This document shows, piece after piece, positions 28,177-36,486 of a stretch of DNA of 64,000 nt (its first letter is position 1; each line of letters opens with the position of its first letter). The stretch covers positions 210,453-274,452 of the forward strand of contig CABVRX010000002.1 of NCBI GenBank assembly GCA_902500825.1. The letters are read 5' to 3'. The DNA is from an uncultured Nitrospira sp. (GTDB lineage Bacteria > Nitrospirota > Nitrospiria > Nitrospirales > Nitrospiraceae). The position numbers and the translations under genes were made by a program. The notes beneath the pieces are model-generated. The model did not search any database. It was not told the origin of the DNA and saw nothing but the letters and a program-made list of their open reading frames with translations.

Positions 28177-28598
28177 TGGGCGTTCACACCGTTTCGCTGA
28201 CGATCCGTATGGAAGGTGATACGCGGGTCGACAACATTACGAAATCCGTCGCCGGCGCGTTGGCTGATTCCAATCTCAAAGCCGGAATCGTGACGGTATT
28301 CATGAAACACACCACGGCTTCGGTGATGATTATCGAGGACGAACCGGGAATTCGAGCAGACACAAAAACATTTTGGGATCATCTCGTTCCTCCCAATCCC
28401 CGATGGCAGCACAACACGGTGAATCCCGGCGAGGATAACGGTCACAGCCATCTTCGAGGGCAACTCCAAGGACCGTCCGTCACCATTCCGTTTGCGGCCG
28501 GTGCGCTTCTGCTCGGCACATGGCAGCAAATCGTCGTAGTGGATTTCGACACTCGTTCCAGAACGCGTGAAGTCGTCGTGCAGGTTCTGGGTGAATAG
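28176..28598 (+). CDS. yjbQ: YjbQ/UPF0047 family protein
   Basis: 140 residues, full length for the family. Conserved features are the MKHTTASVMI strand, NEDEP-like IIEDEPGIR, HNTVNPGEDNGHSHLRG and LLLGTWQQIVVVDFD. The three His of the HNT/GHSHL region form the putative metal site. Family members can replace thiamine phosphate synthase activity weakly, but the true role is unsettled. ATG overlaps the previous TGA by one base and the following gene overlaps its end. Confidence 0.9.
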   Translation: MGVHTVSLTIRMEGDTRVDNITKSVAGALADSNLKAGIVTVFMKHTTASVMIIEDEPGIRADTKTFWDHLVPPNPRWQHNTVNPGEDNGHSHLRGQLQGPSVTIPFAAGALLLGTWQQIVVVDFDTRSRTREVVVQVLGE

Positions 28599-29709
28599 CC
28601 GCGCCGGATCCCTGATACTGCTTATGGCTACAGCGATGCTTTGCTCTCCGATCCATGCTGCGGAATGGGGGAAACCGCTGGGTGCCGTCTATGACGGCCC
28701 TGAAGGGAAGCCACGTCCGGTGACGCCCTCGCCGGTGGAACTGAGCGCCGATGAACGATCGACGATCGCCGTGTTTGAACGTGCGACCAAATCCGTTGTG
28801 TTCATCGCCAATACCGCCATCCAACAAGATATCTGGTCGCTCAACGTCATGGAAGTGCCACAGGGTTCCGGGTCCGGTTTTGTGTGGAGTAAGCACGGCC
28901 ACATCGTCACCAACTTTCATGTCATCTACGGCGCCCATGCGATCAAGGTGACGTTGGCCGATCGGAGTGAGCACGAAGCGAAGCTGGTCGGCGCCGATCC
29001 CGATCACGATTTGGCGGTGTTGCAAATTCAGATGTCGAATGGTCAAGTGGAGCCGCTGGCGATTGGTTTCTCGCACGATTTACGTGTAGGACAAAAAGTG
29101 TTGGCGATTGGGAATCCGTTCGGGCTCGATCATACCTTGACGACCGGGGTTGTGAGTGCATTGGGACGGACCATCAAATCCATGTCGAATCGGACGATTG
29201 AAGGTGTGATCCAGACCGATGCGGCGATCAATCCCGGTAATTCGGGCGGCCCGCTTCTGGATGGGGCTGGGCGATTGATCGGCGTGAATACGCAGATCGT
29301 GAGCCCGAGCGGAGCGTATGCAGGAATTGGTTTTGCCGTTCCGGCTGATACGGTGAACCGCATCGTTCCGGAACTCATCAAGCACGGCAAGCTCATCCGT
29401 CCAGGGTTGGGGGTCTCTCTCGTACCGGACGCGATGGCAAAGCGGTGGGGGATCAAGGGAGTGATTATCGGTAAGGTCACACGCGGCGGCGCCGCCGATC
29501 GCGCAGGCCTCAAAGGGGCGCGTGAAACCATGATCGGGCAGATCCAGCTCGGCGATGTCATTGTCTCGGTCGCCGGAAAGCCGGTGGCGACCATTGATGA
29601 CCTGATGGATGTGATGGAAGCGCACAAAGTCGGTGACCAAGCGAGGGTGGAGATTGTGCGGGGAAATCGGCGTGAAATGGTGTCGGTAACGCTTCAGGCC
29701 GTCAACTAG
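28591..29709 (+). CDS. HtrA/DegP-like periplasmic serine protease (S1C)
   Basis: 372 residues if translation starts at GTG 28591 (an upstream in-frame GTG at 28567 adds eight residues). Signal peptide ending near IHAAE, trypsin-like domain, one PDZ domain (about 270-365). Catalytic triad: His110 (VTNFHV), Asp140 (DPDHDLAVL) and Ser218 (NPGNSGGPL). Acts on misfolded exported proteins. The gene overlaps the yjbQ stop by 8 bp. Its location directly before the cytosolic proteasome genes may mean shared expression of the two protein-quality systems. Confidence 0.92.
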   Translation: MNSRAGSLILLMATAMLCSPIHAAEWGKPLGAVYDGPEGKPRPVTPSPVELSADERSTIAVFERATKSVVFIANTAIQQDIWSLNVMEVPQGSGSGFVWSKHGHIVTNFHVIYGAHAIKVTLADRSEHEAKLVGADPDHDLAVLQIQMSNGQVEPLAIGFSHDLRVGQKVLAIGNPFGLDHTLTTGVVSALGRTIKSMSNRTIEGVIQTDAAINPGNSGGPLLDGAGRLIGVNTQIVSPSGAYAGIGFAVPADTVNRIVPELIKHGKLIRPGLGVSLVPDAMAKRWGIKGVIIGKVTRGGAADRAGLKGARETMIGQIQLGDVIVSVAGKPVATIDDLMDVMEAHKVGDQARVEIVRGNRREMVSVTLQAVN

Positions 29710-29778: not shown

Positions 29779-31515
29779 ATGAGTGATCGCAGAGTTTCTG
29801 AACAGGATGAACCCAACGATCGAAGCGACGAGACGTCGCTGAAGACCGGGATTGATCCGCTCGAATTGATTGAGCAATGCCTGGCCTCATTTCCCGAGGG
29901 GGATGCTCGGCAGAAGCTGCTGTATAAGCTGCGTCATGCGGTGACATTGTCTCAAGCCGCCCATCAACAGCGTGAACTGGAATTCAAGAAAGTCGGCGAG
30001 GTCGTCGCCAAACTGACGGCACCGGCCAATCGTATAGGGACGTTACTTGATGTTCCCGGTGAGGGACTCGCCCGCATCGTCGTCGGGGGAGCCGAGTATT
30101 ATGCCAACGTGGACCCCCGCGTCTCTGATACGGATCTTAAGGTCGGAACGCAGATTCTGGTCAACGAAGCCTATGCCGTGATCAAGGCGCTCGGGTACGA
30201 TCGTAACGGCCCTATCTTGAAACTGACCGAGGCCATGCCTGACGGACGATTGCGGTTTGAACAAGAGATGGGTCGGCAGTCCTTGATTTTGCAGAGGTCG
30301 ACGGATCTTGTCGGCGTCGATCTCAAGGCGGGCGATGAAATTCGCATCGATCCTAGCCATCGTGTGGCGATCGAGAAACTGGTGGATCTCAAAACAAGCC
30401 GACATGTCCTTGATGAAACTCCAAAAATCACGTGGGAGCAGATCGGCGGACAGAGCGAGGCAATCACCGCCATCAGAAAGGCGATCGAGTATCCGCTGCT
30501 GCATGCGGAGACGTTTGAACGGTTCAGGTTTTCCCAACCGAAGGGCTTTCTTCTCTATGGCCCACCCGGATGTGGGAAGACGCTCATCGGGCAAGCGGCA
30601 GCCGGTAGTTTGGCCAAGCTGGTCAGCGAATCCGTGCAAGAGCAACCGCCCGTTCGAGACAAGCGTCCGGCGGTGACAAGCGGGGCATTCCTGCATGTGA
30701 AAGGGCCTGAAATCCTCAACATGTGGCTGGGGGAATCGGAGCGGATGGTTCGCGATCTCTTCGATCAGGCTCGGGCGAGACGCGAGAACGGCGCCTTGCC
30801 GTTTATCTTCATCGACGAGGCGGAGTCGATTTTGGGGACGCGGCGTGCCATGCGCTCCTTCAACATCTCGAATACGCTTGTGCCGATGTTTTGCAGCGAA
30901 ATGGACGGAATCGAGTCGCTGCGTGACGTCGTCATTATTTTAGCGTCCAACCGACCTGACCTGATCGATCCGGCTGTGCTGCGCCCAGGCCGCATCGATC
31001 GGAAGATCAAAGTCAGTCGGCCGAACAGGAACGCTTCGGCCGAGATTCTGAAGGTGTATTTGACCGCGGATCTGCCGTTGGATCCGGTGCTGGTGAAGGA
31101 AAGGGGCGGCGAGCAGATACAGGCAACGGCATCGCTTGTGGAAGACATCATCGAGTCGATCTTCTGCCGAACCGAGGATAACCGGCTTCTGTCGATCAGA
31201 CTCAGGAGCGGACAAAACAAGGTGCTGTATCGCGGCGATTTGGTGAGTGGAGCCATCTTGGCCTCGATCGTTCAACGTGCCAAGGAGAAGGCGATCGACC
31301 GTACGGTTCAGTCTGGGCAGCAGTCTGGATTGCAGGCCAAAGACCTACTGGATTCCATTTCGGAGGAATTTCGTGAAGGTGACATGTTGCCGCCGGACGA
31401 TGCTGCGGAAGAGTGGTTGAAGCTGCTGGATCATCATCCGGAACAGGTGATTGGAATTTCCTCGTTCCGGCGTGGGCGCCAGACAGAAGAACGCCTCGTG
31501 AATCAGATCATCTGA
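29779..31515 (+). CDS. mpa: Proteasomal AAA+ ATPase (ARC/Mpa type)
   Basis: 578 residues. Short N-terminal coiled coil (about 50-80), two OB-like interdomains (about 85-205) and one AAA+ module. Motifs are GPPGCGKT (261-268), FIFIDEAES (Walker B, Asp346-Glu347), ASNRPDLIDPAVLRPGR (sensor 1 and arginine fingers). The hexamer should recognise tagged substrates and unfold them into the 20S core. The C-terminus reads ERLVNQII and lacks the Gln-Tyr-Leu end that docks actinobacterial Mpa to the core. ATG 29779 has AAGGA upstream; an earlier GTG-type start at 29752 is less likely. It is first in the ARC-Dop-tag-PrcB-PrcA-PafA order known from actinobacteria. Confidence 0.93.
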   Translation: MSDRRVSEQDEPNDRSDETSLKTGIDPLELIEQCLASFPEGDARQKLLYKLRHAVTLSQAAHQQRELEFKKVGEVVAKLTAPANRIGTLLDVPGEGLARIVVGGAEYYANVDPRVSDTDLKVGTQILVNEAYAVIKALGYDRNGPILKLTEAMPDGRLRFEQEMGRQSLILQRSTDLVGVDLKAGDEIRIDPSHRVAIEKLVDLKTSRHVLDETPKITWEQIGGQSEAITAIRKAIEYPLLHAETFERFRFSQPKGFLLYGPPGCGKTLIGQAAAGSLAKLVSESVQEQPPVRDKRPAVTSGAFLHVKGPEILNMWLGESERMVRDLFDQARARRENGALPFIFIDEAESILGTRRAMRSFNISNTLVPMFCSEMDGIESLRDVVIILASNRPDLIDPAVLRPGRIDRKIKVSRPNRNASAEILKVYLTADLPLDPVLVKERGGEQIQATASLVEDIIESIFCRTEDNRLLSIRLRSGQNKVLYRGDLVSGAILASIVQRAKEKAIDRTVQSGQQSGLQAKDLLDSISEEFREGDMLPPDDAAEEWLKLLDHHPEQVIGISSFRRGRQTEERLVNQII

Positions 31516-31602
31516 AGACATGTCATGTGAGAAGTAGAAGGTGAACGATTGAGGGCTCGGATGCTGCCCGTTTCACGGTTGATCTTCTATATCTGACAAA
31601 CT

Positions 31603-33129
31603 ATGCGTCTTTTTGGCATCGAAACCGAGTACGGGATAACGAGGGATGACGTGCCGGAGATGGATCCGGTCGTGGAATCAATGGAATTGGTGCGGGCACA
31701 TCTCGCCGCTTCTTTCGAAAGACGGTGGGACTATGCCGGTGAAGATCCGCGCGAGGATGCGCGCGGCTTTCGCGTTTCCGGTTTGCAGCAGGACCGGGAA
31801 GAAGATGAGTTTGCGAAGGCGGATGCCCATCGCCCCTTTTCGTTCCATGATATGAAGAGCGATTTGGTGTTGCCGAACGGCGCGCGATTCTACAACGACC
31901 ACACACATCCGGAGTATTCGACGCCGGAGTGCCGGACGATCAGAGACCTTCTTGCCCAAGATCGAGCGGGGGAGCGTATCGTTCTGCGCGCCGCTCAGCG
32001 TCGTAATCAGATGCTCGGCGGAGGTCACGTGAAGCTTTACAAAAACAACACCGATTTTCACGGCCATAGTTATGGATGTCACGACAACTATCTCGTCTCG
32101 CGGGCCGTGCCGTTTCCTGCTCTTGTAGCGGGCTTGGTGCCATTTTTGGTCAGCCGACAAGTGATCGCGGGTGCGGGAAAGGTCGGCACTGAAGCGCAGG
32201 AGTCCGGTTACGTTCCTGGACGGTATCAGCTCTCGCAACGCGCCGACTTTATGGAAGCCGAGTTGGGCGTCGATACGATGCATAACCGCCCGATTCTCAA
32301 CACCCGAGATGAGCCCCATGCTGATCGTAGAAAATACCGACGGCTCCACCTCATCATCGGCGATGCCAACATGTGCGAGTATGCCACCGCGCTGAAGGTC
32401 GGGACGACACGACTCGTACTTGACCTCATCGAACGAGGGGCGGCGCCTGAGATCGAACTGGATCAGCCTGTGGCGGCGGTGAAACAGTTGTCGCGCGATC
32501 CGGATCTGAAAGCCGTAGTTCGTCTCAAAAACGGACGCAGACTTTCTGCTCTGGAGCTTCAAGAGTCTTACTGTGAGGCGGCACGCCGCGAGTTAGCCGG
32601 ATCCGACGAGGAATCCGATTGGCTGTTGGCTGAATGGGGTGACGTCTTACATCTGTTGGCGCGTGATCGTTCCCAGTTGGTCGGCAAGCTGGATTGGGTC
32701 ACGAAACAGTGGTTGCTCGAGACGTTCATGCGTGAAGAGCGGATCGGCTGGGATGATCCCTGGTTAGCCAGCTTGGATTTGGAATATCACAATGTAGATC
32801 CGGAACAGGGGCTCTACCTCGGATTAGAAGCGGATAAGAAAGTGTGGCGGGTGACGACCGATGACGCGATTGAGGACGCGGTCAGAAATGGGCCAAGAGA
32901 TACACGCGGCGGGTTACGTGGGGTCTGTGTGCAGCGGTTTTCCGATCAGATCAAGTCGATCCAGTGGGAGCGCATTCAGTTCTCAGGCGGGCTTTGCACG
33001 CACAATCTGGATATGGGAGACCTGTTTAATTCGGAGGACGTCCGAGGTTGCATTGATATTTTTCAACACGCCCATTCACCGGTTGATGCGCTGGCAACAT
33101 GGAGCCACAGAAAGGATATGGAGACATGA
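31603..33129 (+). CDS. dop: Dop-type deamidase/depupylase homologue
   Basis: 508 residues of the carboxylate-amine ligase/glutamine-synthetase-like fold shared by Dop and PafA. N-terminal GIETEYG (Glu7, Glu9) and NGARFYNDHTHPEYSTPEC (Asp99) are nucleotide/metal and catalytic elements. I call it Dop because it has the Dop-specific extended loop after strand one (WDYAGEDPREDARGF, then a disordered acidic stretch), as in mycobacterial Dop. In the UBact system the expected job is removing the tag from targets. Its TGA overlaps the ATG of the tag gene (ATGA at 33126). Confidence 0.9.
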   Translation: MRLFGIETEYGITRDDVPEMDPVVESMELVRAHLAASFERRWDYAGEDPREDARGFRVSGLQQDREEDEFAKADAHRPFSFHDMKSDLVLPNGARFYNDHTHPEYSTPECRTIRDLLAQDRAGERIVLRAAQRRNQMLGGGHVKLYKNNTDFHGHSYGCHDNYLVSRAVPFPALVAGLVPFLVSRQVIAGAGKVGTEAQESGYVPGRYQLSQRADFMEAELGVDTMHNRPILNTRDEPHADRRKYRRLHLIIGDANMCEYATALKVGTTRLVLDLIERGAAPEIELDQPVAAVKQLSRDPDLKAVVRLKNGRRLSALELQESYCEAARRELAGSDEESDWLLAEWGDVLHLLARDRSQLVGKLDWVTKQWLLETFMREERIGWDDPWLASLDLEYHNVDPEQGLYLGLEADKKVWRVTTDDAIEDAVRNGPRDTRGGLRGVCVQRFSDQIKSIQWERIQFSGGLCTHNLDMGDLFNSEDVRGCIDIFQHAHSPVDALATWSHRKDMET

Positions 33130-33320
33130 AACACAGCATGATGCCGGAACGGCGCGAAGGGCCGGTCGATCCTATGCCAAAATCGCCCCGTCCTCTTGAA
33201 GAGGGAGGAGGGCCACGCCGCCCGGAGTCGGGATCGCCCGACAAGGACAATCTGATGAAGCGGATGCGCAAGGTCGATCCCAAACAGGCCGAGCGGTATC
33301 GGCAGAGGACGGGGGAGTAG
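33126..33320 (+). CDS. ubact: UBact, ubiquitin-like protein tag of the Gram-negative proteasome
   Basis: 64 residues, no Cys, no fold-like hydrophobic core, very Pro/Glu/Arg/Lys rich: an intrinsically disordered protein. The pattern MPERR-x-G/P-VDPMPK, GGGPRRPE-x-GSPDKDN, KRMRKVDP, ERYRQRTGE is that of UBact, described for Nitrospirae and some other Gram-negative phyla in place of Pup. It ends Gly-Glu, so it is ready for ligation by PafA without deamidation. ATGs at 33126, 33138 and 33141 are all possible; MPERR from 33141 may be the true start. Its position between dop and prcB is exactly that of pup in actinobacteria. Confidence 0.92.
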   Translation: MKHSMMPERREGPVDPMPKSPRPLEEGGGPRRPESGSPDKDNLMKRMRKVDPKQAERYRQRTGE

Positions 33321-33405
33321 TGAGGCAGTGCGACGTGCCGAGTGAGGGGAGCAGATCGGCCTCAGCACGCAGTACTTGAAACCCAGCACTGAGGAGCAGA
33401 TGGAA

Positions 33406-34173
33406 ATGCAGGGGGACTTCTATCAACTCTTAAAAGATCAAGGATACGTGTTCGCAGCGTCGGGACAGGCCGGAGTAAGACAGGAACTGACGACCGCCAC
33501 AACCATCCTTGCGTTCAAGTACCGCGACGGTGTGTTGGTGGCCGGAGACCGACGTGCTACGGCCGGCAATATGGTCATGTACGATCGAACCGACAAGGTA
33601 TTGGAGATTGATCGGTCTAGTGTCATGGCGATCGCCGGAGTGCCGGCGACCGCATATGAAATGGCGCGCATCCTTGAACACTCTTTCAAGTATTATCGGC
33701 GGACACAGCTTCAGGAACTCAGCTTTGAGGGAAAGCTCCGAGCGTTGTCAAAATTGCTGAAAGATAATGTCGCGGCTGCCTTAGCGGGGACTGGAGCTGT
33801 CGTTCCGATCTTTGCCGGTTACGATGCCGGGCAAGAAGCGGCAAAAATCTACTTTTACGATATTCTCGGTGCGGAGTTCGAGGGAGCGGAATATGCGGTG
33901 TCCGGGTCCGGCTCATCGACCATTCGGGGCATTCTTCACTACATGAATACATGGGGCGAACAGCCGCTGAGTGCGATGCCGGAAGAGCACGCGACCGTTC
34001 AGGCGTTGCGACTGTTGACGAGCGCCGCAGAATTCGACAGTGCGACCGGTGGCGTCAATCGCGAAACCGGTCTCTATCCGGTCATTAAGCTCATCACGGC
34101 CGCCGGTGTCAGGATGATGCCGGATCTTCAGCTCCGATCGTTGTTTGAAACAAGAGTTTCTAGAAATACGTAA
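33406..34173 (+). CDS. prcB: Proteasome beta subunit PrcB
   Basis: 255 residues from ATG 33406 (GAGGAG nine bases upstream; ATG 33400 and TTG 33376 are alternatives). A 31-residue propeptide precedes the catalytic Thr32 in LTTATTILAFKYRDGV; cleavage must occur between Ala and Thr, where actinobacterial PrcB has Gly-Thr. The mature chain shows GDRRATAGN (Asp17/Arg19 equivalents), the DKVLEI Lys33 region and GSGSSTIRG. Forms the inner rings of the 20S core with proteolytic activity. Next gene is prcA. Confidence 0.94.
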   Translation: MQGDFYQLLKDQGYVFAASGQAGVRQELTTATTILAFKYRDGVLVAGDRRATAGNMVMYDRTDKVLEIDRSSVMAIAGVPATAYEMARILEHSFKYYRRTQLQELSFEGKLRALSKLLKDNVAAALAGTGAVVPIFAGYDAGQEAAKIYFYDILGAEFEGAEYAVSGSGSSTIRGILHYMNTWGEQPLSAMPEEHATVQALRLLTSAAEFDSATGGVNRETGLYPVIKLITAAGVRMMPDLQLRSLFETRVSRNT

Positions 34174-34184
34174 GGTCATTAGCT

Positions 34185-34994
34185 ATGTATGAAGAGCCAT
34201 ATCGGTGGGTGGAAGCAGTCGGAAATCGACGACAATATCTCGGTGATCAGCTTAAAGAGGGAACCCCTGTTGTCGGGGTGACATACGAGCGCGGCATTCT
34301 GCTCATGACAATGAGCAAAGGCACCCCTAAGTTATATGAGATTTACGATCGTTTAGCCCTTGGCGGTATGGGACATCCGGCTGACCTGGAGAAGTTGCGC
34401 TTTAATCTGCTGGAAATGGCACACGTCGAGGGGTTCAATCGATCCGCTTCGGATGTGACCGGGAGCCGCTTGATAAAGTACGGTATTGCGCCGGTCATCA
34501 AACAAGCGTTCGAAGAGGTGTTCAAGGCCCCCTTCATCGTGAAGATCTTGCTGGCAGAGTTAGGCCGGAAGGCCGAGAAAGATGGCTTCTTGACGATCAA
34601 CTATGACGGCACTTTTGAGGAAAAAAACCGGTATGCGGTGCTTGCCGCGACGTCCGTGGTCGAGCAGGCGATGATCGAGTATATTCGACAACAGTCCATT
34701 GTGTCTCTGAAGGATGCGGTGGATATGGCGATTCGCACGTGGGCGGTTGGGGATCGGGCGCAACGTCCAACACTGGAGGATGGCGAAGGTCTTGACCAAG
34801 CAACGACCGGCCTCGATCGGCAGGTGACGGATGCGGGGACGCTCTATGCGCATCTGCGTCGATGCATGGCCGAAAGGACGATTGAATGTGCTCTGCTTGA
34901 TCGCCACGTGCAAGGACCTTCCAAGTATCGAGCACTTGAGGCCGATGAGTTGGGAACAGTGCTCCCGACGGATCTGAACCCATCACTCACCTAA
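34185..34994 (+). CDS. prcA: Proteasome alpha subunit PrcA
   Basis: 269 residues. Alpha-type fold: N-terminal gate helix region (YRWVEAVGNRRQYLGDQL), GVTYERGILLMTMSKG, KLYEIYDRLALGGMGHPADLE, then the typical NRYAVLAATSVVEQAMIEYI region. No catalytic Thr, as expected. Forms the outer, gating rings that meet the ATPase. The gene follows prcB by 11 bp and precedes pafA by 4 bp. The C-terminal tail (about 235-269) is less conserved and may be flexible. Confidence 0.92.
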   Translation: MYEEPYRWVEAVGNRRQYLGDQLKEGTPVVGVTYERGILLMTMSKGTPKLYEIYDRLALGGMGHPADLEKLRFNLLEMAHVEGFNRSASDVTGSRLIKYGIAPVIKQAFEEVFKAPFIVKILLAELGRKAEKDGFLTINYDGTFEEKNRYAVLAATSVVEQAMIEYIRQQSIVSLKDAVDMAIRTWAVGDRAQRPTLEDGEGLDQATTGLDRQVTDAGTLYAHLRRCMAERTIECALLDRHVQGPSKYRALEADELGTVLPTDLNPSLT

Positions 34995-34998
34995 TCTC

Positions 34999-36486
34999 AT
35001 GTTACATCGTATTTTTGGCTTGGAGACGGAGTACGGGCTTTTGATTCATGAGGACCGCCCCGATCACTCCCCGACCTGGTTCGCCCACAAGATTCGTGAC
35101 CATCTGTTCCGTGTCCAGCGGCGAGGCGTGCTGGATTTGCACCATCGTGGGCATGACGAGCCTCCTGGCAATGGGGGATTTCTCACCAACGCCGGACGAA
35201 TCTATTTGGATATGGGGCATTTAGAATATGCCTCGCCGGAATGCCGTTCTCTCATGGATGTGGTGGCGTCGGATCGTGCCGGAGACCGCTTGCTGCAGCA
35301 AGCTCTCGAAGAGCTCGGCTTCTCAGAGCAGGTGTCCTTGATCAAGAACAACATTGATCATGAAACCGATGCGACTTTCGGCTCACATGAGAACTATCTG
35401 GTTTCTCGACGGTTTCCTTTTTCGAGGCGCGGGCTGGCCCCCCTTGTGACGTTTCTCGTGACCAGGCAGATTTTTACCGGCTCTGGGCGTGTCGGCTCCG
35501 CCGCTCCACAAGATGCCTGGATTCAGACGGATCGGTTAATCCTTCCACCTTCGCCTCTCGGTAGGCATCATGTATCGGAGCTGCCCTTCCAAATCTCTCA
35601 ACGTGCCGACTATATTGTGAACGATTTCTTCGAATGGGTGCAGCACAATCGGGCGATTGTGAACACGAGGGATGAGCCGTTGGCCGATCCCAATCAATAT
35701 CGACGGATTCATCTGTTGCTCGGCGATTCCAACATGGCCGAATATGCGACGGCATTGAAGCTCGGAACGACGGGGTTGGTGCTGCAGCTCATCGAGGAAG
35801 GGCAGGCGCCTCAGGGTTTGGAGATCGACGAGCCTGTGGAAGCGCTCCAAGAGATTTCCCAGGATCAAGAACGGCGCTGGCTGATACGGTTGCAATCTCA
35901 AAAGGCGATGTCGGCTGTGGAGATTCAAGAACGGTTTCTTGACTGTGCCGTTCAGCATTGCAAGGGGCAGGATGAGGAAACCGATTGGGTCCTTGCCCAC
36001 TGGGCGGCTGTGCTCCATGATTTACGCGGTGATTATCAAAAACTCGTTGGGCGCGTCGACTGGGCGTCAAAATTATGGCTGCTGGAATGCTTTCGAGATG
36101 CGGAACATGTTGACTGGACCGATCCCACAATGAAAAGTCTGGATTTGGAGTATCACAATCTGAATCACGCGAAGGGGCTGTATCACGGGTTATTGGAAGA
36201 GGGGCGTGTTCCTCGTGTGACGACAGACCGCCTCATTCAACTTGCGATGGAAACGGCACCCAAAAACACTCGAGCCTACGGCCGCAGTGAACTGGTCAGA
36301 CATCTCCTACATGAGCGGTCCGCCTCAGCTGTGGATCAGCCTCCAACCCCTGATGGATTGTTTCCTCCCTATGTCATCAATTGGTCGATCTTTCAGGTGC
36401 GCGGTCATGCCCCGTTTCCCATGCCGGACCCGTTTAAGACATATTTGGACGATGTGCGGACACACCTCGACAGCGTGATCGTCTAA
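34999..36486 (+). CDS. pafA: PafA-type tag ligase
   Basis: 495 residues, paralogous to the Dop at 31603. N-terminal FGLETEYG (Glu9 and Glu11), then NAGRIYLDMGHLEYASPEC (catalytic Asp71). It lacks the Dop-type loop. It carries the conserved NNIDHETDATFGSHENYL, NTRDEPLADPNQYRRIH and GDSNMAEYATALKLGT blocks. Predicted to activate the C-terminal Glu of UBact with ATP and join it to a substrate Lys. The extension around 435-460 (SAVDQPPTPDGLFPPY) is longer than in mycobacterial PafA. Four bases separate its start from the prcA stop. Confidence 0.9.
   Translation: MLHRIFGLETEYGLLIHEDRPDHSPTWFAHKIRDHLFRVQRRGVLDLHHRGHDEPPGNGGFLTNAGRIYLDMGHLEYASPECRSLMDVVASDRAGDRLLQQALEELGFSEQVSLIKNNIDHETDATFGSHENYLVSRRFPFSRRGLAPLVTFLVTRQIFTGSGRVGSAAPQDAWIQTDRLILPPSPLGRHHVSELPFQISQRADYIVNDFFEWVQHNRAIVNTRDEPLADPNQYRRIHLLLGDSNMAEYATALKLGTTGLVLQLIEEGQAPQGLEIDEPVEALQEISQDQERRWLIRLQSQKAMSAVEIQERFLDCAVQHCKGQDEETDWVLAHWAAVLHDLRGDYQKLVGRVDWASKLWLLECFRDAEHVDWTDPTMKSLDLEYHNLNHAKGLYHGLLEEGRVPRVTTDRLIQLAMETAPKNTRAYGRSELVRHLLHERSASAVDQPPTPDGLFPPYVINWSIFQVRGHAPFPMPDPFKTYLDDVRTHLDSVIV

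Follow-up and report, generated by a model that had tools for sequence, protein, structure and literature searches.

The UBact-proteasome system of Gram-negative bacteria was reportedly described by Lehmann et al. in 2017 (BBRC). It resembles the actinobacterial Pup-proteasome system, whose genes encode Mpa, Dop, Pup, PrcB, PrcA and PafA. In Leptospirillum ferrooxidans two copies of the system, L1 and L2, have been found, the L2 Pup lacking the GGE ending (PMC3511204, Fig. 2; 2012), and a two-system state is thus already known. Furthermore, Gram-negative proteasome subunits form a separate cluster (PMC5666114). As for experimental work on the UBact pathway, almost none was found in the literature searched. 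An earlier note on the DNA analysed here had stated that UBact is already described; in keeping with this, Lehmann et al. 2017 is cited in PMC12751074.

Within the window, a stretch of 64,000 nucleotides of Nitrospira DNA, a six-gene operon on the + strand (29779-36486), with all ORFs open, encodes an ARC/Mpa ATPase, Dop, UBact, PrcB, PrcA and a PafA-like ligase. The first product is a UBact-type ARC/Mpa proteasomal AAA+ ATPase (29779-31515; 578 aa; TIGR03689, E 1.3e-131; PF00004, PF17758, PF16450), consisting of a short N-terminal coil, OB domains and AAA, with the C-terminus ...RLVNQII and Mpa as best PDB match (5kwa, E 1.1e-92). The UBact-type Dop depupylase/deamidase (31603-33129; 508 aa; TIGR03688, E 1.5e-141) follows after a gap of 87 bp; it contains the Dop-loop region and a Dop-like alpha-loop (GVDTMHNRP), matches Dop of the PDB (9cku, E 6.2e-115) and gives an AF2 model with a pLDDT of 89.5. 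Its gene overlaps by 4 bp that of the conjugation tag (33126-33320), a protein of 64 aa with the C-terminus RQRTGE, which follows the R(T/S)G(E/Q) pattern of UBact. The tag had been proposed to be of the UBact type, and both the NCBIfam UBact model NF033388 (E 1.3e-21, 76.5 bits, cut-off 35) and Pfam PF20513 (E 5.6e-21) recognize it. The 20S beta subunit PrcB, located 79 bp downstream (33400-34173; 257 aa from ATG, with an alternative TTG start possible at 33376; TIGR03690, E 3.7e-48), has a propeptide of about 33 aa; when aligned to Rhodococcus beta 1, it retains the catalytic Thr (TTILAFKY), whose loss had been named as evidence against the system, together with Asp17 (GDRRAT) and Lys33. The 20S alpha subunit PrcA, after a further 11 bp (34185-34994; 269 aa; TIGR03691, E 1.8e-19; PDB 1q5q, E 1e-11), has the conserved pocket lysine, with a Tyr at +2 (KLYEIYD). 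Finally, 4 bp separate prcA from the gene of the PafA-like UBact ligase (34999-36486; 495 aa; PF03136, E 7.4e-130), in which the catalytic Asp lies within YLDMGHLEYAS and the alpha-loop, VNDFFEWVQHNR, is of its own kind. Its AF2 model (pLDDT 86.2) has Dop 4b0r and PafA-Pup 4bjr as nearest PDB folds (E about 3e-33). An alpha-loop helix was considered as proof of ligase activity; the model has none, and since its pLDDT is below 50 at 213-216, the missing helix decides nothing on this activity.

ORFs and family profile matches agree with the six gene identities and the order previously claimed. The five non-tag proteins match the pup_AAA, Dop, 20S beta, 20S alpha and PafA/Dop models with E-values from 1.8e-19 to 1.5e-141. 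All five fall below the curated NCBIfam equivalog cut-offs, whereas a canonical set found on contig C3 of the same genome lies above them, which indicates deep divergence and not decay. Indeed, the nucleophile Asp and the ATP-site motif are invariant in Dop and ligase, as judged from alignments of 37 and 42 sequences that cover about six phyla, and the dN/dS of all six genes ranges from 0.06 to 0.17 in four comparisons (0.07-0.11 for the UBact gene alone), as expected under purifying selection. Such values place the locus far from chance and, along with the intact catalytic residues, uphold the view that nothing in it is eroded. Considering gene content, intact residues and low dN/dS, the system of the window is complete and maintained; as far as its sequence tells, it represents the full UBact-type (Gram-negative) tag-proteasome machinery at the gene level. 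An HD protein, a UPF0047 protein and an HtrA-type protease are encoded upstream of the operon and an alpha/beta hydrolase downstream. The HtrA-type serine protease gene (28567-29709) directly precedes the operon, a position conserved within Nitrospira only. The neighbours were also considered as a clue to function and set aside, being conserved in place only within Nitrospira and giving no cross-family hint.

Three features go beyond the earlier note, namely a complete canonical Pup system elsewhere in the same genome, the placement of the window proteins in a separate cross-phylum clade and the lack of the standard docking tyrosine in the window ATPase. The whole-genome search for Pup-ligase proteins yielded four matches. 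Two of them lie in the window; the others are on contig C3, where a locus (C3:116578-122848) encodes ARC, Dop, PrcB, PrcA and PafA of the actinobacterial type. In this locus dop overlaps prcB, and no ORF ending in GE/GQ, the candidate tag gene, was found between them. A true Pup with the C-terminus VQKGGE is encoded at C3:67419-67607 (L059:3414-3611), about 49 kb from the operon; of its two neighbours, named from translations only, one is recJ-like and the other membrane pyrophosphatase-like. UBact is present in the genome as one copy, that of the window. The Pup-to-operon distance is about 45-60 kb in several Nitrospira genomes with both on one contig; thus, the canonical Pup of Nitrospira is unlinked from its operon, whereas it is located between dop and prcB in the Leptospirillum-like genomes fetched, as it is in Poribacteria. 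The gene of a ThiS-like protein that ends in GGGSSY, not GG (L005:4520-4750; named from translations only), is the first of a thiS-thiG-thiE run located just upstream of the operon of the canonical proteasome. Two Nitrospira genomes (G003, G004) contain UBact, its enzymes and Pup; canonical Dop/PafA were not found in them, owing to either an assembly gap or loss.

Among Nitrospirales, UBact occurs in 38 of 59 genomes and adjoins a window-type Dop in all cases but one, which lies at a contig edge; nearly all the genomes of this order without UBact have at most one Dop/PafA pair. When GTDB contigs were scanned with the alignment of the ligase, relatives turned up in Nitrospirota, Nitrospinota, Latescibacterota, Poribacteria, Verrucomicrobiota and Armatimonadota, most of the loci having the same gene set. 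UBact was present in all 25 genomes (about six phyla) behind these loci. Eight of the 25, i.e., three Poribacteria, three Leptospirillum-like and two Nitrospirales genomes, also have Pup, each with a second, canonical enzyme set, so that the two tags coexist in two phyla, Nitrospirota and Poribacteria. UBact without its own Dop/PafA set was not found in the genomes searched. The strict pairing of UBact with its enzyme set and the co-occurrence of Pup with the canonical set indicate that each tag follows its own enzymes.

Some loci display variations. UBact ends in GQ and not GE in four Nitrospira loci (L022, L092, L110, L111) and in all the Nitrospinota-type loci seen (L112-L113, L118-L121, L123, mostly Nitrospinota); in these loci, Dop would have to deamidate the tag. 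In several Nitrospinota loci (L118-L121, L123) the order is ARC-Dop-PrcA-UBact-PrcB-PafA, with additional broken PrcB pieces upstream in L118 and L123. Five Verrucomicrobia loci (L128, L132, L137, L141, L157) have a UBact-type PafA, and the flanks fetched revealed no other gene of the system; Dop and UBact are located on contigs other than that of the UBact-type PafA in those Verrucomicrobia genomes that were checked. Finally, a second, unlinked UBact gene (G061:C146:4858-5022) occurs in the genome of locus L117, and a Chthonomonas-type genome has tandem diverged Pup-ligase homologues away from its UBact operon (G069:C582:7294-10368).

The part of Pup that folds on the enzymes comprises 27 residues (PMC8599861), and the charge of the tag tails was computed on the last 28 residues, which roughly correspond to this part. 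The tails of 20 Nitrospirales Pups have charges from -8 to -5, as opposed to +3 to +7 for 44 distinct UBact tails. The enzymes show the reverse trend: in the Nitrospirales loci compared, the net charge of Dop is -23.8 in UBact sets vs. -9.9 in canonical sets, and that of PafA is -25.1 vs. -8.6, while for ARC, PrcB and PrcA the two kinds of set are at most about 3 units apart. The largest shift is found in a single stretch of 43 residues (approximately 359-401 of the window PafA and 371-412 of Dop), whose charge in Dop is -11 to -5 in UBact sets vs. -2 to +6 in canonical ones and in PafA -11 to -3 vs. -3 to +1. These contrasts were derived on canonical loci of Nitrospirales and then checked on those of Poribacteria and Leptospirillum-like genomes. 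As predicted, the out-of-sample Pups have charges from -3 to -11, and the canonical stretch ranges from -3 to +1 in PafA and from -1 to +6 in Dop; the whole-protein contrast for Dop is weak in Poribacteria (canonical -17, -19 and -5 vs. a UBact mean of -23.1).

The ATPase tails and the alpha-ring pocket also separate the two sets. The penultimate residue is Ile or Val in 64/64 distinct UBact ATPase tails, which end in II, VI, IV, IE or VV, against a background I/V frequency of 5.7% at positions -14 to -3. Pup ATPases have a penultimate Tyr/Phe: 19 of 19 distinct canonical Nitrospirales tails end in GHY[LF], including the GHYL of the C3 ATPase, and the out-of-sample tails (Poribacteria, Leptospirillum-like) are GAYL, GTFL, GTFL, GHYL and GHYL. 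The window ATPase ends in NQII and lacks the penultimate Tyr of GQYL/HbYX. The pocket lysine of PrcA, which we take to be the docking lysine, i.e., M. tuberculosis PrcA Lys52, is kept in both sets. A conserved alpha-subunit lysine described in PMC12288473 agrees with this assignment. Position +2 from the lysine is Tyr/Phe in 80/80 UBact sequences vs. Ser in 29/29 canonical ones, and position +15 is His/Asn in 79/80 vs. Lys/Arg in 28/29. As for the receptor coil, measured as the proline-free run before the OB domain, its median length in UBact ATPases is about half that of canonical ones (38 vs. 92 residues). Coil charge was also tried as a contrast and gave no clear one; the coil differs in length only.

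By homology, the ligase would use ATP to activate the gamma-carboxylate of the C-terminal Glu of UBact, which would be joined to substrate lysines, and Dop would remove or trim the tag. The N-terminal coils of the ARC hexamer would bind UBact and the substrate would be threaded into the PrcB/PrcA 20S core, to be hydrolysed at its Thr protease sites. The canonical system of contig C3 would play the same roles with Pup as the tag. Insulation could arise at two levels: between the tags, through the basic UBact tail and the acidic Pup tail, with compensating charge on the enzymes; and at docking, where each ATPase would fit no 20S but its own, since the aromatic residue of the contact would be supplied by the ATPase tail in the Pup system, whereas in the UBact system it would belong to the wall of the alpha subunit. 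Overall, we consider it probable that the window encodes a complete UBact system, which has a parallel in the second tag-proteasome system of this genome, and that the two are insulated; from the sequences, we infer two such pathways in one cell. A stricter version is that the two pathways of a cell are mutually blind owing to charge-inverted tag-enzyme interfaces and a reciprocal aromatic swap between ATPase tail and 20S pocket, a swap from which we propose that UBact proteasomes dock without the HbYX rule; we regard this version as evenly poised between right and wrong. Since the matched differences are also present in UBact-only phyla (Latescibacterota, Armatimonadota, Nitrospinota), they most likely arose before coexistence and made it possible, being lineage traits that would permit the two systems to share a cell. 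Mixed 20S cores from both systems may also form.

The two systems could instead be partly redundant, with ligases sharing tags, ATPases feeding both 20S cores and a second set kept for dosage, as the common gene set and order, the shared catalytic residues and pocket lysine, and the G-E end of both tags would allow. Such cross-talk seems unlikely given that the tag tails are opposite in charge with enzyme charge compensating, that docking tails and pocket walls differ, and that no genome searched had UBact without its own Dop/PafA set. Corynebacterial ATPases lack the docking motif, and it has been argued for corynebacteria that tagging serves unfolding, storage or signalling. A UBact ATPase likewise no longer coupled to the 20S would fit the absence of a HbYX/GQYL tail from every UBact ATPase examined, and ATPases of species without proteasome genes lack the motif as well (PMC3511204). 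On the other hand, the proteasome genes are in the same operon with the Thr active site intact, the alpha-ring pocket lysine is retained, and the tail is replaced rather than lost (a conserved [IV][IVE]-COOH in 64/64 distinct tails), which makes uncoupling improbable in our judgement.

With regard to descent, the Dop/PafA tree resolves four clades: canonical PafA, which includes C. glutamicum PafA (support 100/99), canonical Dop, which includes actinobacterial Dop (97/93), UBact Dop (L2_Dop, 97/91) and UBact PafA (L2_PafA, 100/100). Nitrospinota, Latescibacterota, Poribacteria and Armatimonadota are found in the UBact clades, Verrucomicrobiota in that of PafA only. The canonical set of Nitrospirales is therefore of the actinobacterial type and the window set belongs to a separate cross-phylum lineage. 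The actinobacterial gene order pointed out in the earlier note holds, but none of the window proteins is a copy of its actinobacterial counterpart. The best tree unites UBact PafA with UBact Dop (support 64/64), and the UBact PafA alpha-loop is unlike both known kinds. The UBact ligase might thus have a Dop-side origin that is independent of canonical PafA, in which case tag ligases would have evolved twice. This origin is compatible with two insulated systems; we consider it possible, albeit doubtful, as the alternative tree in which all PafA sequences form one group scores only 0.8 log units lower (AU p 0.48), while one linking UBact PafA to canonical Dop is rejected (p 0.0075).

A genome with Pup and UBact offers a built-in comparison, in which one digest can report both taggings through different lysine remnants. 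The remnant of UBact needs correction from the Gly-Glu first suggested: since the tag ends in RTGE, trypsin would leave Thr-Gly-Glu. The matched sequence differences predict residues that set tag choice and proteasome docking; should UBact ATPases dock via their Ile/Val end, they would be a cross-phylum exception to the penultimate-tyrosine rule, which is generally assumed for proteasomal ATPases. In addition, orthogonal tag-protease pairs would be useful for controlled protein removal in bacteria. Of further interest are the occurrence of the dual state across genus and order and the specific, testable predictions; the Nitrospira system itself is of a known kind that was rightly named before.

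Compared with the actinobacterial Pup-proteasome, the locus has the same order, enzyme folds and catalytic residues, but differs in its basic RTGE tag, its acidic enzymes, its ATPase without the penultimate Tyr and with a coil of about half the length, and its own PafA alpha-loop. The Pup system on contig C3 has the same functions by homology; its enzymes group with actinobacterial PafA/Dop, its ATPase ends in GHYL and its Pup in KGGE, whereas the window tag ends in TGE and departs from GG(E/Q). L2 of L. ferrooxidans is likewise a second complete copy with the same order, divergent sequence and a tag without GGE (PMC3511204). As to the UBact-proteasome system of Lehmann et al. 2017, tag family, gene set and phyla are the same and nothing basic differs; the full Pup system in the same genomes and the docking-tail and charge differences are additions, of which the matched differences seem new.
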